From assembly GCA_902561015.1 (NCBI GenBank), contig CACENB010000003.1, forward strand, positions 1-64,000: a DNA stretch of 64,000 nucleotides, written 5' to 3'. The position numbers and the translations under genes were made by a program. This DNA comes from an uncultured Pelagibacteraceae bacterium. Lineage in GTDB: Bacteria; Pseudomonadota; Alphaproteobacteria; Pelagibacterales; Pelagibacteraceae. The notes under the pieces are model-generated. The model was not told the origin of the DNA. It did not search any database and saw only the letters and a list, made by a program, of their open reading frames with translations. Positions 5,136 to 33,700 of this stretch are shown here, piece after piece. The stretch's first letter is position 1. Each line of letters opens with the position of its first letter.

Positions 5136-6515
5136 TCAAGATGCCACTTGAATAGAATTTTTTGAATAGCTGCTATTCTTTTTAATCTCATCTGATATTA
5201 AAAATGCTAATTCTAAGGCTTGATCTGCATTAAGCCTAGGATCACAGTGAGTGTGGTATCTGCTTGATAAATCAGCATCAGAAATTTTTCTTGCACCACC
5301 AGTACATTCTGTCACATTTTGACCAGTCATTTCAATATGTAAGCCTCCTGCGTACGAACCCTCACTTTGGTGAACTGCAAATACATCTCGTACTTCTTTT
5401 AAAACTCTATTGAATGGCCTAGTTTTAAATCCAGTTGTAGATTTGATCGTGTTTCCATGCATAGGATCACAAGACCAAATCACGTTTAAACCTTCTTTCT
5501 TAATGGTTCTTACGAGTTTTGGTAAAAATTTTTCAACTGAGTCGTGTCCAAATCTAGATATAAGTGTAATTTTACCTTTTTCATTTTTTGGATTTATTAA
5601 GTTGCAAATTTTTACTATTTCTTCTGGTTTACTTGTAGGGCCACATTTTATTCCTATTGGATTTTCTATACCTCTGCAAAATTCAACATGACCCCCATCT
5701 AACTGTCGAGTTCTATCACCAATCCATACAAAATGAGCAGATGTATCGTGGTATTCTCCAGTTGTAGAATCTATTCTTGTCATGCTTTCCTCAAAAGGTA
5801 GATGTAATGCCTCATGTGATGTCCAAAAATTAACTGTATATAATCTGTTATTAAAGTCTGAAGTAATTCCGCATGCTGACATAAATGCTAATGCATCAGC
5901 AATCTTATCCTCTAGATCTTTAAATTTTTTAGCTTGAGGACTTTTTTTGATATAGTCTAAATTCCACAAGTGAACTTTATTCAGGTCTGCAAAACCTCCT
6001 TTTGAAAATGCTCTTAATAAATTTAGAGTTGATGCAGATTGTGAGTAAGCTCTAAAAAGTCTTTTTGGATCGTGCTCTCTAGCTTTTTTATTAAATTCAA
6101 TACCATTTACATTATCGCCTAAATAGCTTGGTAGTTCTAAATTTCCTTGTTTTTCGGTTGGTGCACTTCTTGGTTTGGCAAACTGACCTGCAATTCTTCC
6201 AAGCTTAATTACTGGCAGTGATGCTGAATAGGTTAACACCAATGACATTTGTAAAATTAATTTAAAGGTATCTCTAATATTATCTGGATTAAATTCAGCA
6301 AAACTTTCAGCGCAATCTCCTCCCTGAAGTAAAAAAGCTTTACCATCTACTACTTCAGCAAGTTGTTGTTTTAAGTGTCTTGTCTCACCAGCAAAAACAA
6401 GTGGTGGAAAATTTTTTATTTTACCTAACACTTGCTCCAATTCCTTTTTATCTGAATATTCAGGAATATGTTTTACTGGATATTTTCTCCAACTATTTAT
6501 TTTCCAATTTTTCAT
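5136..6515 (-). CDS. aroG: Class II 3-deoxy-D-arabino-heptulosonate-7-phosphate synthase
   Basis: About 459 residues of the plant/class II DAHP synthase family. NSWR near the N-terminus, FLLQGGDCAESF, RIAGQFAKPRS, the metal-binding WSCDPMHGNT and the C-terminal TECTGG are all class II signatures. It joins phosphoenolpyruvate and erythrose 4-phosphate to start the shikimate pathway. The ORF track begins two codons earlier at a TTG (6521); the ATG at 6515 has an AGG six bases upstream and gives MKNWKINSWR, the normal family start, so it is preferred. The symbol is by common usage; class II genes are also called aroH or aroF. Confidence 0.93.
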   Translation of the reverse strand: MKNWKINSWRKYPVKHIPEYSDKKELEQVLGKIKNFPPLVFAGETRHLKQQLAEVVDGKAFLLQGGDCAESFAEFNPDNIRDTFKLILQMSLVLTYSASLPVIKLGRIAGQFAKPRSAPTEKQGNLELPSYLGDNVNGIEFNKKAREHDPKRLFRAYSQSASTLNLLRAFSKGGFADLNKVHLWNLDYIKKSPQAKKFKDLEDKIADALAFMSACGITSDFNNRLYTVNFWTSHEALHLPFEESMTRIDSTTGEYHDTSAHFVWIGDRTRQLDGGHVEFCRGIENPIGIKCGPTSKPEEIVKICNLINPKNEKGKITLISRFGHDSVEKFLPKLVRTIKKEGLNVIWSCDPMHGNTIKSTTGFKTRPFNRVLKEVRDVFAVHQSEGSYAGGLHIEMTGQNVTECTGGARKISDADLSSRYHTHCDPRLNADQALELAFLISDEIKKNSSYSKNSIQVAS

Positions 6516-6580
6516 GTTCAACCTAGAGTAGTTTTAGCAGAGTTTTGAAACTATACAACTTAGATTTAATTTAATAGATA

Positions 6581-7510
6581 TTATTTAGCCTTTTTTTTAC
6601 AAATTATAGACCACGACTTAGGTAAAGGGTCGATCAATTCCATAACTCTTACTTTTTCCCAGAACCCTAACTTTTCCCAAGAATTTACCCATGTATCTGG
6701 CAAACGTTTTTTGTTTATATTCCCTAAAGTTACAAACTCTAAAACTTCCAAATCAGCTTTTTCCAAAATTTTCTTTATTTCAAATGTGTCATAAGCTTCA
6801 TCAACGGGAGTGAGATAAGCGTCTGCAAACATCGCATCACTAATAGAAATATGTGTTGGATAACCATAAGAACGAATTTTCAAAATTTGTTTAACTTTAC
6901 GGGATACATTATCTCTAATATCTTGGTAAATTGTTCTAATTGTTTTATCAAAAAAACTACCATATTTTTTGTTAAAACTTTTTACAGCCACTTTGGCACT
7001 TTCAAGATCTTTATTTAAACCTAATATAGATATGGCTTCTCTTAGCATATATCTTTTGTAGTGGCCTTTTTTTGAATAAAACATCATACCTAAAATGCCA
7101 CCAGGTTTCAGAGCATTCTTAATGTTATTTATTGATTTAATAATATCAGTTGAGTGATGTAAAGCCCCAATGGATATTGCACAATCAGCTAAATTATTTA
7201 TTGAAATTTCATCTAAAAATGATTGGTTCAAAATTTTTACTCTATTTGAAAAACCTTTTTCTTTGAACAAAGCTTCTGCTAATTGCAGACTAGGTTTTGA
7301 AATATCTAAACATATTGCATTACAATTCGGATACAAATCTAAAAATCCTGCAGTATGTCTTCCTGCTCCACAACCTGCATCAAGAAGTAAAAATTCTTTA
7401 GAGGGAATATATGGCTTTAATCTTTGTGCCCATTGATATGTTATTAAGGAATTAGGTCCAGGATATTTTATCTGAGCATAAAATTCTTTTGTAAGTTTAT
7501 CTTGATCCAT
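6581..7510 (-). CDS. Class I SAM-dependent methyltransferase, specificity unknown
   Basis: 309 residues. The Rossmann SAM-binding motif I is LLDAGCGAGRHT near residue 43, followed by an acidic motif II (NAICLDIS) and a motif IV region (ADCAISIGALHHS) that places it among small-molecule methyltransferases of the Methyltransf_11/25 type. The C-terminal ~170 residues hold a long helical insertion with conserved-looking YGYPTHISISDAMFADAYL, which probably forms the substrate pocket. It sits alone between glmS and the DAHP synthase gene on the same strand with ~60 nt gaps. I do not recognise the substrate. No membrane segment or signal peptide is seen. Confidence 0.75.
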   Translation of the reverse strand: MDQDKLTKEFYAQIKYPGPNSLITYQWAQRLKPYIPSKEFLLLDAGCGAGRHTAGFLDLYPNCNAICLDISKPSLQLAEALFKEKGFSNRVKILNQSFLDEISINNLADCAISIGALHHSTDIIKSINNIKNALKPGGILGMMFYSKKGHYKRYMLREAISILGLNKDLESAKVAVKSFNKKYGSFFDKTIRTIYQDIRDNVSRKVKQILKIRSYGYPTHISISDAMFADAYLTPVDEAYDTFEIKKILEKADLEVLEFVTLGNINKKRLPDTWVNSWEKLGFWEKVRVMELIDPLPKSWSIICKKKAK

Positions 7511-7577
7511 AATTTAAATTTTTTGTTATTATAAGTTTAATTAGCATCCTTGTAGTATGAGGTAAATTCAATACTTG

Positions 7578-9398
7578 CTACTCAACTGTAACCGATTTGG
7601 CTAAATTTCTTGGCTTATCAATATCATAACCCTTTTTAAGAGCTGAGTAATATGCCAATTTTTGAAGCGGAATAGTTAAAAGGAACGGAAGTAAGTCATC
7701 ATTTGTATTCTCGACTACAATAGTTTCCCAAATATTTTCTGAAACAACTTCATCTTTACTTTTATTGGTTATTAATAATACCTTTGCTCCTCTAGCAATA
7801 ACTTCCTGCATGTTAGAAATGGTTTTTTTATAGTAATTATCTCTAGGCGCCAACACTACAACTGGCATACCTTCTTCAATCAAAGCCAAAGGTCCATGTT
7901 TCATTTCTCCTGCGGGGTAACCCTCGGCATGAACGTAAGATAATTCTTTTAATTTTAAAGCTCCCTCTAATGCGATAGGGTATGAAAATCCTCGACCCAA
8001 AAACATTGAACCTTTGGCCTCAATAAAAGTACTTGAGGTATTTTGAATTTTATTATCAATAAGCAATGTTTTGCCAACTAATTCAGGTAGAGCTTTTAAA
8101 TCTTTCAGCTTTTTTGAAAATTTTTTCTTATTGATATCTCCTCTAATTAATCCAAGTTTTAAAGAGAGAATATATAAAATTAACATTTGACCTAAGAAGG
8201 CTTTTGTCGAGGCAACACCTATCTCTGTGCCACAGTGAATTGGTAAAACAAATTTAGAGTCTCTTGCTATAGAGCTTTCGATTACATTAACGATGCCACA
8301 AGTTTTCATACCATTTTTATTACACAAATCTAAAGCTGCATAAGTATCAGCAGTTTCGCCTGATTGCGATACAAAAATATATAAACTATCTTTTTTAAAT
8401 CTATTTTTTCTGTACCTAAATTCTGAGGCTATATCTACACTTACATCTAGAGATGTTAATTCCTCAAACCAATATTTGGCCATTAAACATGAATGATATG
8501 CGGTACCACATCCTATCAATGTTATTGATGAAATATCTTCTGCATTCCAGGGAAAATTAAATATATTAATGTCATTGTTTGCTGTATCTAAGTATTCTTT
8601 AATACCGTTCTTTATTGACATTGGTTGTTCGTCTATTTCTTTAGCCATAAAATGTTTGTAGTCTCCTTTATCGTATTTTTGATCCTCACTAGATAATTCT
8701 AAAACTTTTTTATTAATTTTTTTTCCCTTTTCATCAAAAAACTCGACTAGATCTTTTTTAATCACACAAAATTCACCATCATTTAGATATGTAATTTTGT
8801 TTGTCATTGATTTCAAAGCATATGAGTCTGAACCTAAATAATTTTCATTTGGACCATAACCGACAGCTAAAGGTGAACCTCTTCTAGCGCCTATGATTAA
8901 ATCTGGTTGATCTTTAAAAATGATTCCTAAAGCAAAACTTCCATGAAGTAATTTCAAAGTTTTTTTTATAGAATTAATTACATTTTCTGTTTTTAAATGT
9001 TCAGTTATTAAATGAACAATAACCTCTGTATCTGTTTGAGATTTGAATTTATGACCTTTACCAATTAAAAACTTTTTTAAGATAGTTGAATTTTCAATTA
9101 TTCCATTATGTACTACAGAAACATTTTGGGAAGAATGCGGATGAGCATTTAAACTGCTAGGTATTCCATGTGTTGCCCATCTAACATGACCAATGCCTAT
9201 AGTTCCTTCCATCTTTTGGACAAGTGAATTTTTTTCTAAATTATCTACCCTGCCCTCAGATTTAATCTCATTAATTGAACCTCTTGATAGAGTGGCTATT
9301 CCTGCTGAGTCATAACCTCTATATTCTAATTTTTTTAACGAATTAATTATCGTAGATGAGACCGGCTTGTAACTATTAATTCCAATAATTCCACACAT
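7578..9398 (-). CDS. glmS: Glutamine--fructose-6-phosphate aminotransferase (isomerizing)
   Basis: 606 residues, matching the usual length. The N-terminal MCGIIGIN provides the catalytic Cys2 of the class II glutamine amidotransferase domain, with GHVRWATHG and TDTEV following. Two SIS sugar-isomerase domains fill the second half, with the first containing SQSGETADT, and the C-terminus DKPRNLAKSVTVE is diagnostic. It makes glucosamine 6-phosphate, the entry to peptidoglycan and LPS amino sugars. Its start overlaps the stop of the GlmU-like gene by one base, so the two form an operon for consecutive UDP-GlcNAc steps. No glmS ribozyme-like element fits, since there is no leader between the two genes. 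Confidence 0.97.
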   Translation of the reverse strand: MCGIIGINSYKPVSSTIINSLKKLEYRGYDSAGIATLSRGSINEIKSEGRVDNLEKNSLVQKMEGTIGIGHVRWATHGIPSSLNAHPHSSQNVSVVHNGIIENSTILKKFLIGKGHKFKSQTDTEVIVHLITEHLKTENVINSIKKTLKLLHGSFALGIIFKDQPDLIIGARRGSPLAVGYGPNENYLGSDSYALKSMTNKITYLNDGEFCVIKKDLVEFFDEKGKKINKKVLELSSEDQKYDKGDYKHFMAKEIDEQPMSIKNGIKEYLDTANNDINIFNFPWNAEDISSITLIGCGTAYHSCLMAKYWFEELTSLDVSVDIASEFRYRKNRFKKDSLYIFVSQSGETADTYAALDLCNKNGMKTCGIVNVIESSIARDSKFVLPIHCGTEIGVASTKAFLGQMLILYILSLKLGLIRGDINKKKFSKKLKDLKALPELVGKTLLIDNKIQNTSSTFIEAKGSMFLGRGFSYPIALEGALKLKELSYVHAEGYPAGEMKHGPLALIEEGMPVVVLAPRDNYYKKTISNMQEVIARGAKVLLITNKSKDEVVSENIWETIVVENTNDDLLPFLLTIPLQKLAYYSALKKGYDIDKPRNLAKSVTVE

Positions 9399-28946: not shown

Positions 28947-29546
28947 ATGCAGCCAGCATACTATGAAGATTTTGTAGAAATTCAAAATAAGTATTGGTCT
29001 ATGTTAGATGATGCTGTGACTAACAGAGGTTCACCATTTAGAATTCCAGTTTTTATTTGTGCTCATCAAAACGAAGTTGATGGCAGAATTGTAGTTTTAC
29101 GTAAATCAGATAGAGCAAGCAATCTATTACAATTTCATACAGACTTAAGATCTCCTAAAGTCGATATTCTAAAAAAAAATAAGAATGCCTCTCTAGTTTT
29201 CTACGATAAAGAAGAAAAGATACAATTAAGAGTAAAAGTAGAATGTGAAGTTAATAATCAAAATTCTACAACTGAAGAGTCATGGAAGAAAACTCAACAT
29301 ATAAGTAGACGTTGTTATTTAACTGATAGCCCTCCTGGAACTACTTCAGAAAATCCAACTTCTGGAATGATATCTAAATTAGAAGATTTCGATTACACAA
29401 TGAAACAAAGTGAAGAAGGTTATAAAAATTTCACTGTAATTAAATGTAAAATTAAATCTATTGAATGGCTTTATCTTGCAGCCAAAGGTCACCGTAGAGC
29501 AAAGTTTGATTTAGAAACTAATAAAATGGATTGGTTGGTTCCTTAA
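28947..29546 (+). CDS. Pyridoxamine 5'-phosphate oxidase-related FMN-binding protein
   Basis: 199 residues with a PNPOx split-barrel pattern: GRIVVLRKSDRASNLLQFHTD corresponds to the flavin-binding strand pair, followed by KVDILKKNKNASLVFYD and a C-terminal EWLYLAAKGHRRAKFD, where the RA.F motif closes the active site in PdxH-like proteins. The central SRRCYLTDSPPG region resembles the Alr4036-type subgroup rather than true PdxH (which has R.VLLKG and a C-terminal LAP). It probably reduces or oxidises a small molecule with FMN. It follows the dehydrogenase by 3 nt, so the two are an operon. Function unknown. Confidence 0.75.
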   Translation: MQPAYYEDFVEIQNKYWSMLDDAVTNRGSPFRIPVFICAHQNEVDGRIVVLRKSDRASNLLQFHTDLRSPKVDILKKNKNASLVFYDKEEKIQLRVKVECEVNNQNSTTEESWKKTQHISRRCYLTDSPPGTTSENPTSGMISKLEDFDYTMKQSEEGYKNFTVIKCKIKSIEWLYLAAKGHRRAKFDLETNKMDWLVP

Positions 29547-29578
29547 TATCTTATAATTAATTAAACAAGCCTTAGGGA

Positions 29579-30220
29579 CTATTTTTTTAAAAAGTTAGTA
29601 ATACTTTTTTTTATTGTTTCTGCAATAATTAATACCCCTTTTTCATTTGGATGTATTCCGTCAGCCTGATTTAAACTTGGATTAAGAGCTACTCCTTTTA
29701 AAAGAAATGGAATTAATTCTAACTCAAATTTTTTTGATAAATCAGGATAGATCTTGTCAAATTTTTTTTTATAATTTAACCCATTTGTTGGTGAAGCAAT
29801 CATGCCAGCAAGTATAATTTTGATATTATTACTTGTTATAATGTTAATTATATCCTCTAAATTTTGCTTTGTTTGATCTGGGTTAATTCTTCTTAACATG
29901 TCATTTGCTCCAAGACCAATAATTATTAAATCGTAACTTGTATCTGATAATTCATCCTCAATTCTATCTAAACCATCTGAAGATGTATCTCCGGAAATAC
30001 TGCCATTAAAAATTTGAATTTCATATTTATCAGATTTTAAACTTTTTTCTAATACAACAGATAAATGGTCATCCTCAGGTAAGCCATAACCTGACATTAG
30101 GCTATCACCAAATAACAATACCTTTTCTATTTTAATTTGTGATTTTTTTTCACTACAACCAACTACTATTGCAGCTACTAAAACAAAGACCAAGACCCTT
30201 AAAAAATTTTTTTTAGACAC
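29579..30220 (-). CDS. SGNH-hydrolase lipoprotein, TesA-like arylesterase/lysophospholipase
   Basis: 213 residues. A signal peptide ends in the lipobox VVGC (Cys at residue 22), so it is a predicted lipoprotein. SGNH catalytic blocks are in order: GDSLMSGYG (nucleophile Ser), GSISGDTS (Gly), GLGANDML (Asn) and DGIHPNEKG (Asp/His). It should hydrolyse ester or thioester bonds at the envelope. The start is GTG at 30220; the only upstream sequence in frame is a copy of its own first codons followed by a stop. It is 30 nt downstream of the serine-hydrolase pair. Confidence 0.87.
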   Translation of the reverse strand: MSKKNFLRVLVFVLVAAIVVGCSEKKSQIKIEKVLLFGDSLMSGYGLPEDDHLSVVLEKSLKSDKYEIQIFNGSISGDTSSDGLDRIEDELSDTSYDLIIIGLGANDMLRRINPDQTKQNLEDIINIITSNNIKIILAGMIASPTNGLNYKKKFDKIYPDLSKKFELELIPFLLKGVALNPSLNQADGIHPNEKGVLIIAETIKKSITNFLKK

Positions 30221-30238
30221 TAAAAAATTTTTTTTAGA
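30200..30238. repeat. Two tandem copies of an 18-nt AT repeat at the SGNH gene start
   Basis: TAAAAAATTTTTTTTAGA occurs at 30200-30217 and again at 30221-30238, period 21 nt. One copy is inside the first codons of the SGNH gene and the other is just upstream in the same frame, ended by a TAA. Each copy can fold on itself (AAAAAA/TTTTTT). It looks like a small local duplication, exactly seven codons long, that may have moved the start codon. Confidence 0.7.
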
Positions 30239-30250
30239 TTATCTAATAGA

Positions 30251-31681
30251 CTAGGATCCATTTTTAATTACTGAATGGGCAATTTTTGTCCAATTATAGG
30301 TTGTATGTATCGAATTAATAACAATTATACGTCCACGATCAAAATCAATCATTATTGATTGACCACCATTTCCATCCATACCCATAATTGTTCTATCTTT
30401 CATACCTGAATAATCTGTATGAAAAAAACCTGCATAACCTTTAGGATTTAGAAAACTGTTTTTATCATTTTTGTACGAGTGATTTTTTTTAATTCTATTT
30501 TTATAAATATTTTTTAGATATTTACCAACGCACGTATCATTTTGCCAATCATCTAACATTGCTTTTGCAATTCTCATATAATCATATCTAGTAGCCCAAA
30601 ATTGATTTGTTAAAATACCATCATCATATGTTCCGTCCTTGTGTTTTGAAAATATAGCATAATTTTTAATTTTCGATTTTTCCCTAAATGTTTTGTCTAA
30701 AATCTTTTGGTAATCACCGTTTGACTTATACCAAATATAGTTAATTAAAATTATTGGAGGAAATCCATTATAATTATATTTTTTTTTCGATTTTTCTGAA
30801 CCTTTAAATACACCTTCCATGTGGTATCTAATAGGTGCAAATCCTGCCATCTTGCCAGTTTTTTTAATTCTTTTCTCAAGAGTTACATATTTTTGATCTC
30901 CTGAAGCCATGTTAAGAAGGTCAATTATTCGTTGCCCATCATAAACTGTATTTTTTAATAACGGATAATCATCGATTTTTGATTCAACACTGTCAATATA
31001 TCCACCACAAACAGCATGCCCTAGCATATATGATACCATTGTTTTACCAACTGATGATGAAAGAAATTTAGCCCCATCATGCACCAGTATACCAAATCGA
31101 TCATCTGGACTTTTTTTATCTACGGTGATTTTACCGTTTTCAAATAACAGATAACTCATTATAGGTGATTTCTTAAGTTCTTTATCTACGTTTTTATCTT
31201 CACGTAAATCAAATTCAAATTCATATGGATTTGATGAAGCTTCAATTAAATATTTATCATTTGATAAATCTGCTTTTTTACTTCTAACAAATCCATAATA
31301 TAACAAAGTATCATCATTAATATTTTTTGCATTCCATGGTATTGAATGACGAATTTTACCATCTTTTTTTTTAAAAAACTTTATTTTGAGTTTATTTTTA
31401 TATTTTTTGTGGTCTGCCCACTTATATCCGTCTTCACCATAACTTTGATCACCATCTAAAACACATTGTTTTTTAGGTTTTCCAACTTCCTCAAAACATC
31501 TTGGTCCTGCGTCCCATCTTGTACAATTTTTACACTCATCATAATCTTTATTAACTTCTATGTATTGTGTATGATTATTGATAAGAAACCATTCATTTAA
31601 CGCTTCTTCATATTTATCTTTTGCATTTACATTAACACTTAAAATTAATGAGAGAATTAAAGTTAAAAATATTTTTTTCAT
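30251..31681 (-). CDS. Secreted serine hydrolase, beta-lactamase/DD-peptidase fold, copy 1
   Basis: 476 residues. A signal peptide (MKKIFLTLILSLILSVNVNA, cut about 20/21) is followed by a cysteine-rich segment with Cys 50, 53, 62 and 73. Then comes a class C beta-lactamase-like region: S210-V-G-K213 as SxxK in LSSSVGKTMVSY, a later KYNYNGF where the YxN motif is expected but reads Y-N-G, and GMDGNGGQSIMIDF as the third motif with flanking strands. Paralogue of the next gene, 7 nt away; both are probably one transcript. Family members hydrolyse esters, amides or peptidoglycan peptides; beta-lactam resistance should not be inferred. Confidence 0.7.
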   Translation of the reverse strand: MKKIFLTLILSLILSVNVNAKDKYEEALNEWFLINNHTQYIEVNKDYDECKNCTRWDAGPRCFEEVGKPKKQCVLDGDQSYGEDGYKWADHKKYKNKLKIKFFKKKDGKIRHSIPWNAKNINDDTLLYYGFVRSKKADLSNDKYLIEASSNPYEFEFDLREDKNVDKELKKSPIMSYLLFENGKITVDKKSPDDRFGILVHDGAKFLSSSVGKTMVSYMLGHAVCGGYIDSVESKIDDYPLLKNTVYDGQRIIDLLNMASGDQKYVTLEKRIKKTGKMAGFAPIRYHMEGVFKGSEKSKKKYNYNGFPPIILINYIWYKSNGDYQKILDKTFREKSKIKNYAIFSKHKDGTYDDGILTNQFWATRYDYMRIAKAMLDDWQNDTCVGKYLKNIYKNRIKKNHSYKNDKNSFLNPKGYAGFFHTDYSGMKDRTIMGMDGNGGQSIMIDFDRGRIIVINSIHTTYNWTKIAHSVIKNGS

Positions 31682-31688
31682 AATTTAC

Positions 31689-33158
31689 TTATTTACCATT
31701 TTTAATTACTGAATGGGAAATTCTTTTCCAATTATAATTTGAATGCATTGTATTAATAACAACAATTCTACCTTGATCAAAATCAATCATAATACTTTGA
31801 TTACCTTTACCAACCATCCCCATTATATTCCTTCCACGCATTCCTGGATAGTCTGCGTAGAACTGCCCAGCATATGATTTGGGATTTAAACTCGGACTTT
31901 TGTCATCTTTCCATTTATCATTTTTTGGAATTCTTCTATCATGAATATCTTTTAAATATTTTCCAACACAAGTATCATTTTGCCAATCATCCAACATTGC
32001 TTTAGCTATTCTCAGATAATCATACCTTGAAGCTCTAAACGAATATCTTAAAGGTCCATCTTCATCTCTTACTTTATACTCTTTTAAAATTTTATTATTT
32101 CTATTGTTATCTTTAACATTTTTGTCATTCATTTTTAAAAACCATACATCATTTTCAACTTTTGCTTTATCTATAAATATTTCATCTAAAAGATTTTGAA
32201 ATTGACCTTCAGATTTAAACCAAACATAGTTTATTAAAATATTGGTTATAAAATTAGTGTATTGATATTTATTTTTTGCCTTTTTTGAGTTTTTAAAAAC
32301 TCCCTTCTGCAAGTGAAATTCAACGGTATTTGCGTTTGCATTTTTTTTGTATTGGTTAGTTTTTAAATTCTTGTCTGCATATTTATGATGACCAGCAGCC
32401 ATATTTAAAAGATTTATTAATTCTTGATCATAGAAAAGTGTGTTTTTCAATAATGGCCAGTCATTTAATTTGGTATCGACACTATCAATATAACCTTTGC
32501 AAATAGCATGACCTGTTACATAAGATACAATACTTTTTCCAACAGACATGCTGGTAAACTGGGTATTATTATCATACAAAATTCCAAAACGATCTTTTGG
32601 TGATATTTCATCTATTGTAATTTTACCGTCTTCGTAAAGTAAGTAACTAAGCAAAGCTGTTTTTTGCATATGTTTTTTTATATATTTCGAAATTTTGTCA
32701 TCTCTTAATTCGGTTTTAAATTTATAAGGATTTTTTGATGCTTTAGAGCCAGCACGGTCATGTTCATCATCATTATCTAGGTATCTAAATAAATAATATA
32801 TTAAAGTATCTTTATTTGGGTTTGTACCCCAAGGTATTTCTGACGATTTATAAAACTTAACATTTAAATTAGTTTTATATTTTTTGTGGTCTGCCCACTT
32901 ATATCCGCCCTCACCATAACTTTGATCACCATCTAAAACACATTGTTTTTTAGGTTTTCCAACTTCCTCAAAACATCTTGGTCCTGCGTCCCATCTTGTA
33001 CAATTTTTACACTCATCATAATTTTTATTAATTTCTAAATATTGAGTATGATTATTATTTTCTAACCATTTAATAAATTTATTAAATTTACTATCTGTTG
33101 CATTTGCATTTACACTTAAAATAAATGAGAGAATTAAAGTTAAAAATATTTTTTTCAT
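31689..33158 (-). CDS. Secreted serine hydrolase, beta-lactamase/DD-peptidase fold, copy 2
   Basis: 489 residues. Same layout as copy 1: signal peptide MKKIFLTLILSFILSVNANA, the same four cysteines (50, 53, 62, 73), S205-V-G-K208 as SxxK, KYQYTNF giving an intact Y-T-N, and GMVGKGNQSIMIDF. The two proteins share the last ~50 residues and the Cys-rich segment closely but differ over the middle, including an insertion in copy 2 (about residues 320-350). It lies first in the pair; the 29-nt gap to the carbonic-anhydrase-like gene upstream carries no obvious terminator. Confidence 0.72.
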   Translation of the reverse strand: MKKIFLTLILSFILSVNANATDSKFNKFIKWLENNNHTQYLEINKNYDECKNCTRWDAGPRCFEEVGKPKKQCVLDGDQSYGEGGYKWADHKKYKTNLNVKFYKSSEIPWGTNPNKDTLIYYLFRYLDNDDEHDRAGSKASKNPYKFKTELRDDKISKYIKKHMQKTALLSYLLYEDGKITIDEISPKDRFGILYDNNTQFTSMSVGKSIVSYVTGHAICKGYIDSVDTKLNDWPLLKNTLFYDQELINLLNMAAGHHKYADKNLKTNQYKKNANANTVEFHLQKGVFKNSKKAKNKYQYTNFITNILINYVWFKSEGQFQNLLDEIFIDKAKVENDVWFLKMNDKNVKDNNRNNKILKEYKVRDEDGPLRYSFRASRYDYLRIAKAMLDDWQNDTCVGKYLKDIHDRRIPKNDKWKDDKSPSLNPKSYAGQFYADYPGMRGRNIMGMVGKGNQSIMIDFDQGRIVVINTMHSNYNWKRISHSVIKNGK

Positions 33159-33187
33159 AAATAAATATTATCTAATTTATTGACTTT

Positions 33188-33700
33188 TTAGAATATAGAT
33201 TTTGAATATTTTTTCCAATTATCTTGGTAATGTTTTGTATTTTCCCAAACTGCCTTTTTTTCTTCTTCGGTTACTTCTCTAACAACTTTACCTGGTGAAC
33301 CAACGACTAGTGAATTATCAGGAATTACTTTGTTTTCTGTGATTAAAGCTTTTGCACCTATAATACAATTTTTACCGATCTTAGCATTATTTAGAATCAC
33401 TGCACCGATGCCTATTAAACTATTATCTCCAACTGTACATCCATGAAGCATAACAAGGTGTCCAACGGTTACATCTTTTCCAACTTTTAAAGGGCAGCCT
33501 GGGTCTGTATGCAGAACACATCCATCTTGAACGTTTGATCCCTCACCTATATGAATATTTTCAATATCGCCTCTTAAAGTTGCATTAAACCAAACGCTAG
33601 TATTTTTTTCTAAAGTAACATCGCCAATGACTACTGCATTTGGAGCCACCCAATTTTCGCCAGAGTTTTTTGGTTTTTTATCTTTTAAATCGTAAAACAT
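33188..33700 (-). CDS. Gamma-carbonic-anhydrase-like hexapeptide protein (YrdA/CaiE/PaaY family)
   Basis: 170 residues forming a left-handed beta-helix with hexapeptide repeats from about residue 18 to 135. Signature positions are [42 protein letters not shown] and [12 protein letters not shown]; the three metal-binding histidines are the H of VLHTD, GHLV and LHGC. The C-terminus is a helix ([17 protein letters not shown]). Members are zinc- or iron-dependent carbonic anhydrases or thioesterases of unsure role. It diverges from the thioredoxin-like gene with 20 nt between starts. Confidence 0.9.

Follow-up and report, generated by a model that had tools for sequence, protein, structure and literature searches.

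Recombined cysteine cassette in a tandem pair of putative exported serine hydrolases of SAR11, and exchange of such cassettes among diverged members of the family

The closest described relatives of the proteins analyzed here are recognized by their fold. When the AlphaFold2 model was compared with the PDB in Foldseek, PIB-1 of Pseudomonas aeruginosa (PDB 8RLJ/8RLK/8RLL) was the first match (8rlj, E=1.7e-13, TM 0.65 by target), followed by NylB-type enzymes, ADC beta-lactamases, Lsa45 and FmtA-like proteins; PIB-1 is also the only PDB match of the sequence profile of the family (E=0.0034). It shows 15-16% identity to the family, and the N-terminal Cys cassette described below is known here from the family only. 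The 6-aminohexanoate-dimer hydrolase (NylB/EstB type) and the FmtA-like/Lsa45 esterases (PF00144 superfamily) have a like fold and a like Ser-x-x-Lys/Tyr arrangement at 12-14% identity, and the family differs from them by an extra N-terminal region and a Pfam score below the gathering cut-off.

In respect to the genomic setting, two described systems are close. The auxiliary or moron genes of T4-like marine phages (pelagimyophages, PMC7029224) likewise present a host-type gene beside structural genes, with a low GC content like that of SAR11 phages; lactamases and hydrolases are unmentioned in that survey. The replacement flexible genomic islands and the O-chain cluster of Pelagibacterales, for which phage selection was proposed, likewise have a fixed chromosomal place with cargo varying between close relatives, whereas in the present case a cassette of 45 residues is also exchanged within individual genes (PMC11898729 for the islands, where hydrolases and lactamases are unmentioned). 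No publication joining the terms "pelagiphage" and "serine hydrolase" was found within the limits of the literature searched. Recombination in flexible islands is an established principle and the fold is likewise known, while a cassette exchange inside the gene of an exported hydrolase common to phages appears to be undescribed within that literature.

The window, i.e. the whole analyzed stretch of 64,000 nucleotides, comes from a partial assembly of 37 contigs that is 68% complete. The features of the locus are collected in Table 1. The open reading frames of A and B, predicted as tandem serine hydrolases at 30251-33158 in the earlier note, are both present, start with ATG, have no internal stops, and are separated by a gap of 7 nt. 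The pair occupies a slot with variable cargo: in two relatives (G019 and G025) the border genes lie 3 bp apart and the slot is empty, the GDSL esterase/lipase gene is found in the slot of some relatives only, and the slot of other relatives holds different short cargo, which in G033, G085, and G127 includes further members of the family. Across the relatives listed as L183-L210, the interval corresponding to 28947-33700 carries methyltransferase-like, small conserved, lipase or hydrolase genes.

Table 1. Features of the A/B locus in the window (catalytic roles are predicted).
Feature	Coordinates	Strand	Basis
Slot right border (conserved), pyridoxamine-phosphate-oxidase-like protein	28947..29546	+	PF12766
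GDSL esterase/lipase, probable lipoprotein, next after A on the same strand	29579..30220	-	PF13472, E=7e-20
Gene A, putative exported serine hydrolase, 476 aa, downstream pair member	30251..31681	-	ORF; 60% protein identity with B
A predicted catalytic SVGK motif, Ser210-Lys213	31043..31054	-	Alignment with B
A Cys cassette, codons 46-95, Cys50/53/62/73	31397..31546	-	150 nt, 2 mismatches vs B
A signal peptide (predicted)	31622..31681	-	Sequence; exact 33-nt 5' match
Gene B, putative exported serine hydrolase, 489 aa, upstream pair member	31689..33158	-	ORF; class C serine-hydrolase fold (AlphaFold2 and Foldseek)
B predicted catalytic Tyr300	32259..32261	-	Tyr in 116/116 family members
B predicted catalytic SVGK motif, Ser205-Lys208	32535..32546	-	Ser 116/116, Lys 115/116 family members
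B Cys cassette, codons 46-95, Cys50/53/62/73	32874..33023	-	150 nt, 2 mismatches vs A
B signal peptide (predicted), MKKIFLTLILSFILSVNANA	33099..33158	-	Sequence; codons 1-20 95% nt identical to A
Slot left border (conserved), hexapeptide-repeat protein, gamma-carbonic-anhydrase-like	33188..33700	-	PF00132; in 51/61 genomes searched

Judged from their sequences, the A and B proteins look like exported enzymes, in line with the earlier description of them as secreted serine hydrolases. The signal peptide and a short helix precede the cassette, after which come a strand and the catalytic body. The AlphaFold2 model has a mean pLDDT of 86, with the cassette region of low confidence (pLDDT 57-80), and its 340 Foldseek matches in the PDB at E<=0.001 assign it to the class C serine-hydrolase fold. 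The Ser-x-x-Lys active site of the PF00144 superfamily is present in the family, and besides the nearly invariant Ser205, Lys208, and Tyr300 (Table 1) two cysteines of the body, Cys220 and Cys397, are kept in 116/116 members. Together with the fold, the near-invariance of these three residues makes catalysis likely. The Tyr of the YxN motif is kept throughout, while the Asn is found in a minority of members only, being mostly replaced by Ala or Gly. The third motif is of the GxGGQ type, as in the NylB/EstB type, and the KTG-type motif of true class C beta-lactamases is absent. The PF00144 scores of the pair, 14.7 and 12.9 bits, are below the gathering cut-off of 27, a match at E<=0.01 is obtained for 4 of 58 family members, and NCBIfam yields only sub-threshold class C beta-lactamase matches. 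The four cysteines previously reported at positions 50, 53, 62, and 73 are found in both proteins. The block that contains them had not been recognized as any domain, and a search with this block alone agrees: it has no match in Pfam and only chance-level sequence matches in the PDB (a complement receptor fragment, E=0.027).

A stretch of ~150 nt with two mismatches between A and B had been noted at 31401-31550 and 32878-33027. At exactly these coordinates there are three mismatches (31431, 31433, and 31546), but the observation stands when the block is shifted by 4 nt to the cassette coordinates of Table 1, where two remain; no longer run of this kind occurs between A and B. In 5000 codon permutations of A/B the longest run was 65 nt, and the observed one was reproduced in 0/5000. 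The signal-peptide codons are near-identical, as stated before (44/45 nt in codons 1-15), and the exact 33-nt match at the 5' end occurs at two sites in the genome only, in A and in B. Since the 75 nt between the signal peptide and the block (codons 21-45) are only 65% identical, the sliding identity resolves two tracts and not one. Outside the block the bodies are ~60-73% identical overall: 63% in the linker, 62% in codons 161-350, which bears out the wide divergence described for the central catalytic regions, and 73% in codons 361-485, so that the C-terminal third is somewhat closer.

The synonymous positions show the same contrast. At shared residues other than Met and Trp the same codon is used in 42/43 cases within the block as against 120/190 elsewhere (Fisher p=5.8e-7). 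The argument that protein constraint is insufficient for the matched synonymous sites holds, recombination being required as well. The tract has sharp bounds, synonymous sites included, and neither coding overlap nor RNA structure accounts for its identity: an overlapping antisense gene was rejected because the block lacks an antisense frame that stays open along its length, and a structured RNA because the RNA folding is ordinary (z=-0.3). It is very probable that recombination made the block; the bodies of A and B had already diverged when recombination gave both genes one and the same cassette allele.

The close relative AG-899-J03 (L005, G226), with a single gene at this locus, allows a comparison of the kind the earlier note had called for. 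In this gene, which adjoins the same left border gene, a B front is fused to an A body (about 99.5% identity), and the 3.28-kb flank is 94.9% identical. Against A the gene shows 5 nt differences after codon 65 and no protein difference from codon 47 on. As the 5' part is that of B and the body that of A, a recombination junction is placed in the block. The fusion could also be an assembly loop-skip between two 150-nt repeats, since repeats of this length are difficult for assemblers and the loss of short contigs is possible; the B body was not found elsewhere in the partial AG-899-J03 genome. The C4 cassette allele is found only in the source genome and in AG-899-J03, and a diverged form, only 50% identical in protein, is present in G129.

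The family is carried by 46/201 and 87/399 sampled genomes of this SAR11 genus (about 22%), and tandem copies are common among the carriers. The common body begins at about residue 95-100 and is preceded by N-terminal parts of differing types. One other cassette, NEWFW, has been put by cassette exchange on at least four different bodies: B-type (L004, L006, L095, L216), A-type (L010, L093), a third (L099), and a fourth (L015). Between different bodies the NEWFW cassette DNA is 84-97% identical, against about 60-66% for the bodies, and the 25-35 shared codons are the same with at most one exception. In the body tree the NEWFW carriers do not form one clade; 4 changes are needed, and a single origin is rejected (AU p=2e-57). 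L006 and L057 have a common 4.4-kb block that is 89.6% identical, with the cassette at 97%. Module searches of 201 genomes for the cassette in other protein families matched only this family, apart from two marginal matches. Across the genus, the N-terminal Cys segment behaves like a unit that can be exchanged between strains and between many bodies that have diverged.

Family copies in other genomes adjoin genes of PF14099 polysaccharide lyases, a GH10-like protein, a sulfatase, and DUF1800/DUF1501 proteins. This glycan neighborhood is seen at some loci only, and other copies lie beside groEL, NAD kinase, thioesterase or transporter genes. DUF1800 and DUF1501 occur as adjacent pairs by hydrolase/polysaccharide lyase genes in several SAR11 genomes (L055, L060, L064, L071). 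The island of L057 that holds family members and the GH10-like gene also encodes, at 6067-8457, a low-complexity protein of ~800 aa rich in Met, Gly, and Ala.

The family profile matches 36/197 genomes of the order and none of 298 other Pseudomonadota genomes. In IMG/VR, 64 viral contigs, one of them 171 kb long, carry homologues, and in 31/64 of them the fetched stretch has T4-type baseplate genes, namely gp6, gp25 or PAAR, beside the homologue. Several phage copies show the cassette motif C...YSxxWYYNxC. A tblastn search with B and the phage copy L124 against 50,697 catalogued phages gave no match, nor did a PHROG search or the PADLOC models of anti-phage defence. Within these searches the family is restricted to SAR11 and T4-like phages. 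In the body tree the cell and phage copies are interleaved, with a single viral clade rejected (AU p=3.8e-6), and the DNA identity between cell and phage bodies reaches 88.7% over 948 aligned nt, the cellular partner of this match adjoining groEL on a 227-kb host contig. SAR11 chromosomes and T4-like phages exchange homologues of the family. The possibility that the chromosomal members are unrecognized phage contigs was rejected, as the tested phage genes are absent from their flanks; the family copies of G063, G107, G058, G065, and G178 sit among core host genes, e.g. groEL and ileS.

Phage-like members next to groES/groEL are observed in three SAR11 genomes (L224 11401-12675, L225 9325-10500, L226 8563-9768), with DNA identities of up to 89% to copies from T4-like phages. 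For the cellular L050 (G063) and the phage L174, the 5' 132 nt (gene nt 29-160) are 91.7% identical and the bodies 73%, a contrast which suggests that front ends are also exchanged between host and phage copies. At G530:C5:67434-68723, where an intact gene of 380 aa (L217) is also located, the family match spans 9 stop codons; it may overrun the gene end or take in a decayed copy.

How the block between A and B arose can be weighed against these data. Recent gene conversion had been proposed for it, and what stands of this proposal is that recombination is needed; conversion within the pair becomes one case of the genus-wide cassette exchange. With the N-terminal segment exchangeable across the genus, the tract could equally stem from an unequal crossover or an incoming gene, and a transfer from A to B or from B to A would fit alike. 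A purely local process, in which one of two ordinary tandem duplicates was partly overwritten by the other with no special cassette exchange, would fit the two identity tracts around the diverged 75-nt stretch, as these resemble patchy conversion, and the narrow occurrence of the C4 allele. We nevertheless regard it as rather unlikely, being already weakened by the NEWFW data: the front/body mosaic is found in at least seven genomes and on four bodies, with no second NEWFW copy seen there. Maintenance of the block by constraint on the DNA or strongly on the protein (an overlapping gene, an RNA element, an essential motif), without recombination, draws on the identical codons of the NEWFW cassettes even in distant strains. 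Conservation of the same block in DNA between distant strains, named beforehand as an observation that would count against conversion, is seen in part, for this sister cassette only; it is accompanied by incongruent body trees, which indicates transfer and not constraint at the DNA level. The rejected antisense frame and the ordinary folding, the divergence of the G129 form, and the ordinary substitutions in the YSNLWYY-type cassettes also leave constraint with hardly any probability. An artefact created by repeat handling in the single-cell or metagenome assembly is nearly as improbable: the assembly is fragmented and 150 nt is near the short-read k-mer limit, but the two copies differ at 2 sites, have unique sequence on either side, and the same cassette/body mosaics occur in independent single-copy genomes.

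In respect to function, the reading we prefer is an exported esterase or amidase whose target would be an envelope glycan, under phage-driven selection. The envelope role suggested in the earlier note stays plausible, and the link to phages had not been anticipated there. The protein would consist of the signal peptide, the short helix, an exchangeable Cys cassette of ~45 residues, and a body of the class C beta-lactamase fold with Ser-x-x-Lys/Tyr, and its sequence predicts export to the periplasm or surface. By analogy with the superfamily, Ser205 would form the acyl-enzyme on an ester or amide, with Lys208 as base and Tyr300 assisting, and the gene context points to a glycan of the envelope or surface as the possible target. 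The cassette, probably disulfide-stapled, may set the specificity for the target or a partner, and phage pressure would drive its exchange, by receptor editing in the host and exclusion of rival phages in the phage. To the combined model of a swapped-cassette hydrolase acting on the envelope we give a probability of about 0.6. A beta-lactamase or peptidoglycan DD-peptidase, giving protection from beta-lactams or remodelling the wall and used by phages for lysis or wall repair, seems rather unlikely by comparison; the fold, the Ser-Lys-Tyr triad, and the best PDB match to PIB-1, a class C-related enzyme, speak for it, while the GxGGQ third motif, the loss of the YxN Asn in most members, and the scores below the Pfam cut-off do not, and patchy presence with cassette swapping would be odd for a housekeeping wall enzyme. 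The favoured envelope hydrolase can be extended, quite tentatively, to a surface hydrolase common to SAR11 and T4-like phages with a swappable, disulfide-stapled specificity cassette, by which phages would edit the receptor and exclude rivals while hosts would capture and reshuffle it to escape.

SAR11 are among the most abundant cell groups of the ocean, and their coexistence with abundant phages is an open question. The data show that in these streamlined genomes recombination acts on single domains and not on whole genomic islands alone. Enzymes carried by both SAR11 and phages, found in variable slots and swapping a specificity-like segment, are a concrete and testable candidate for such an interaction between SAR11 and phages. 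If true, the receptor-editing reading would represent a combinatorial cassette-exchange system not described before.
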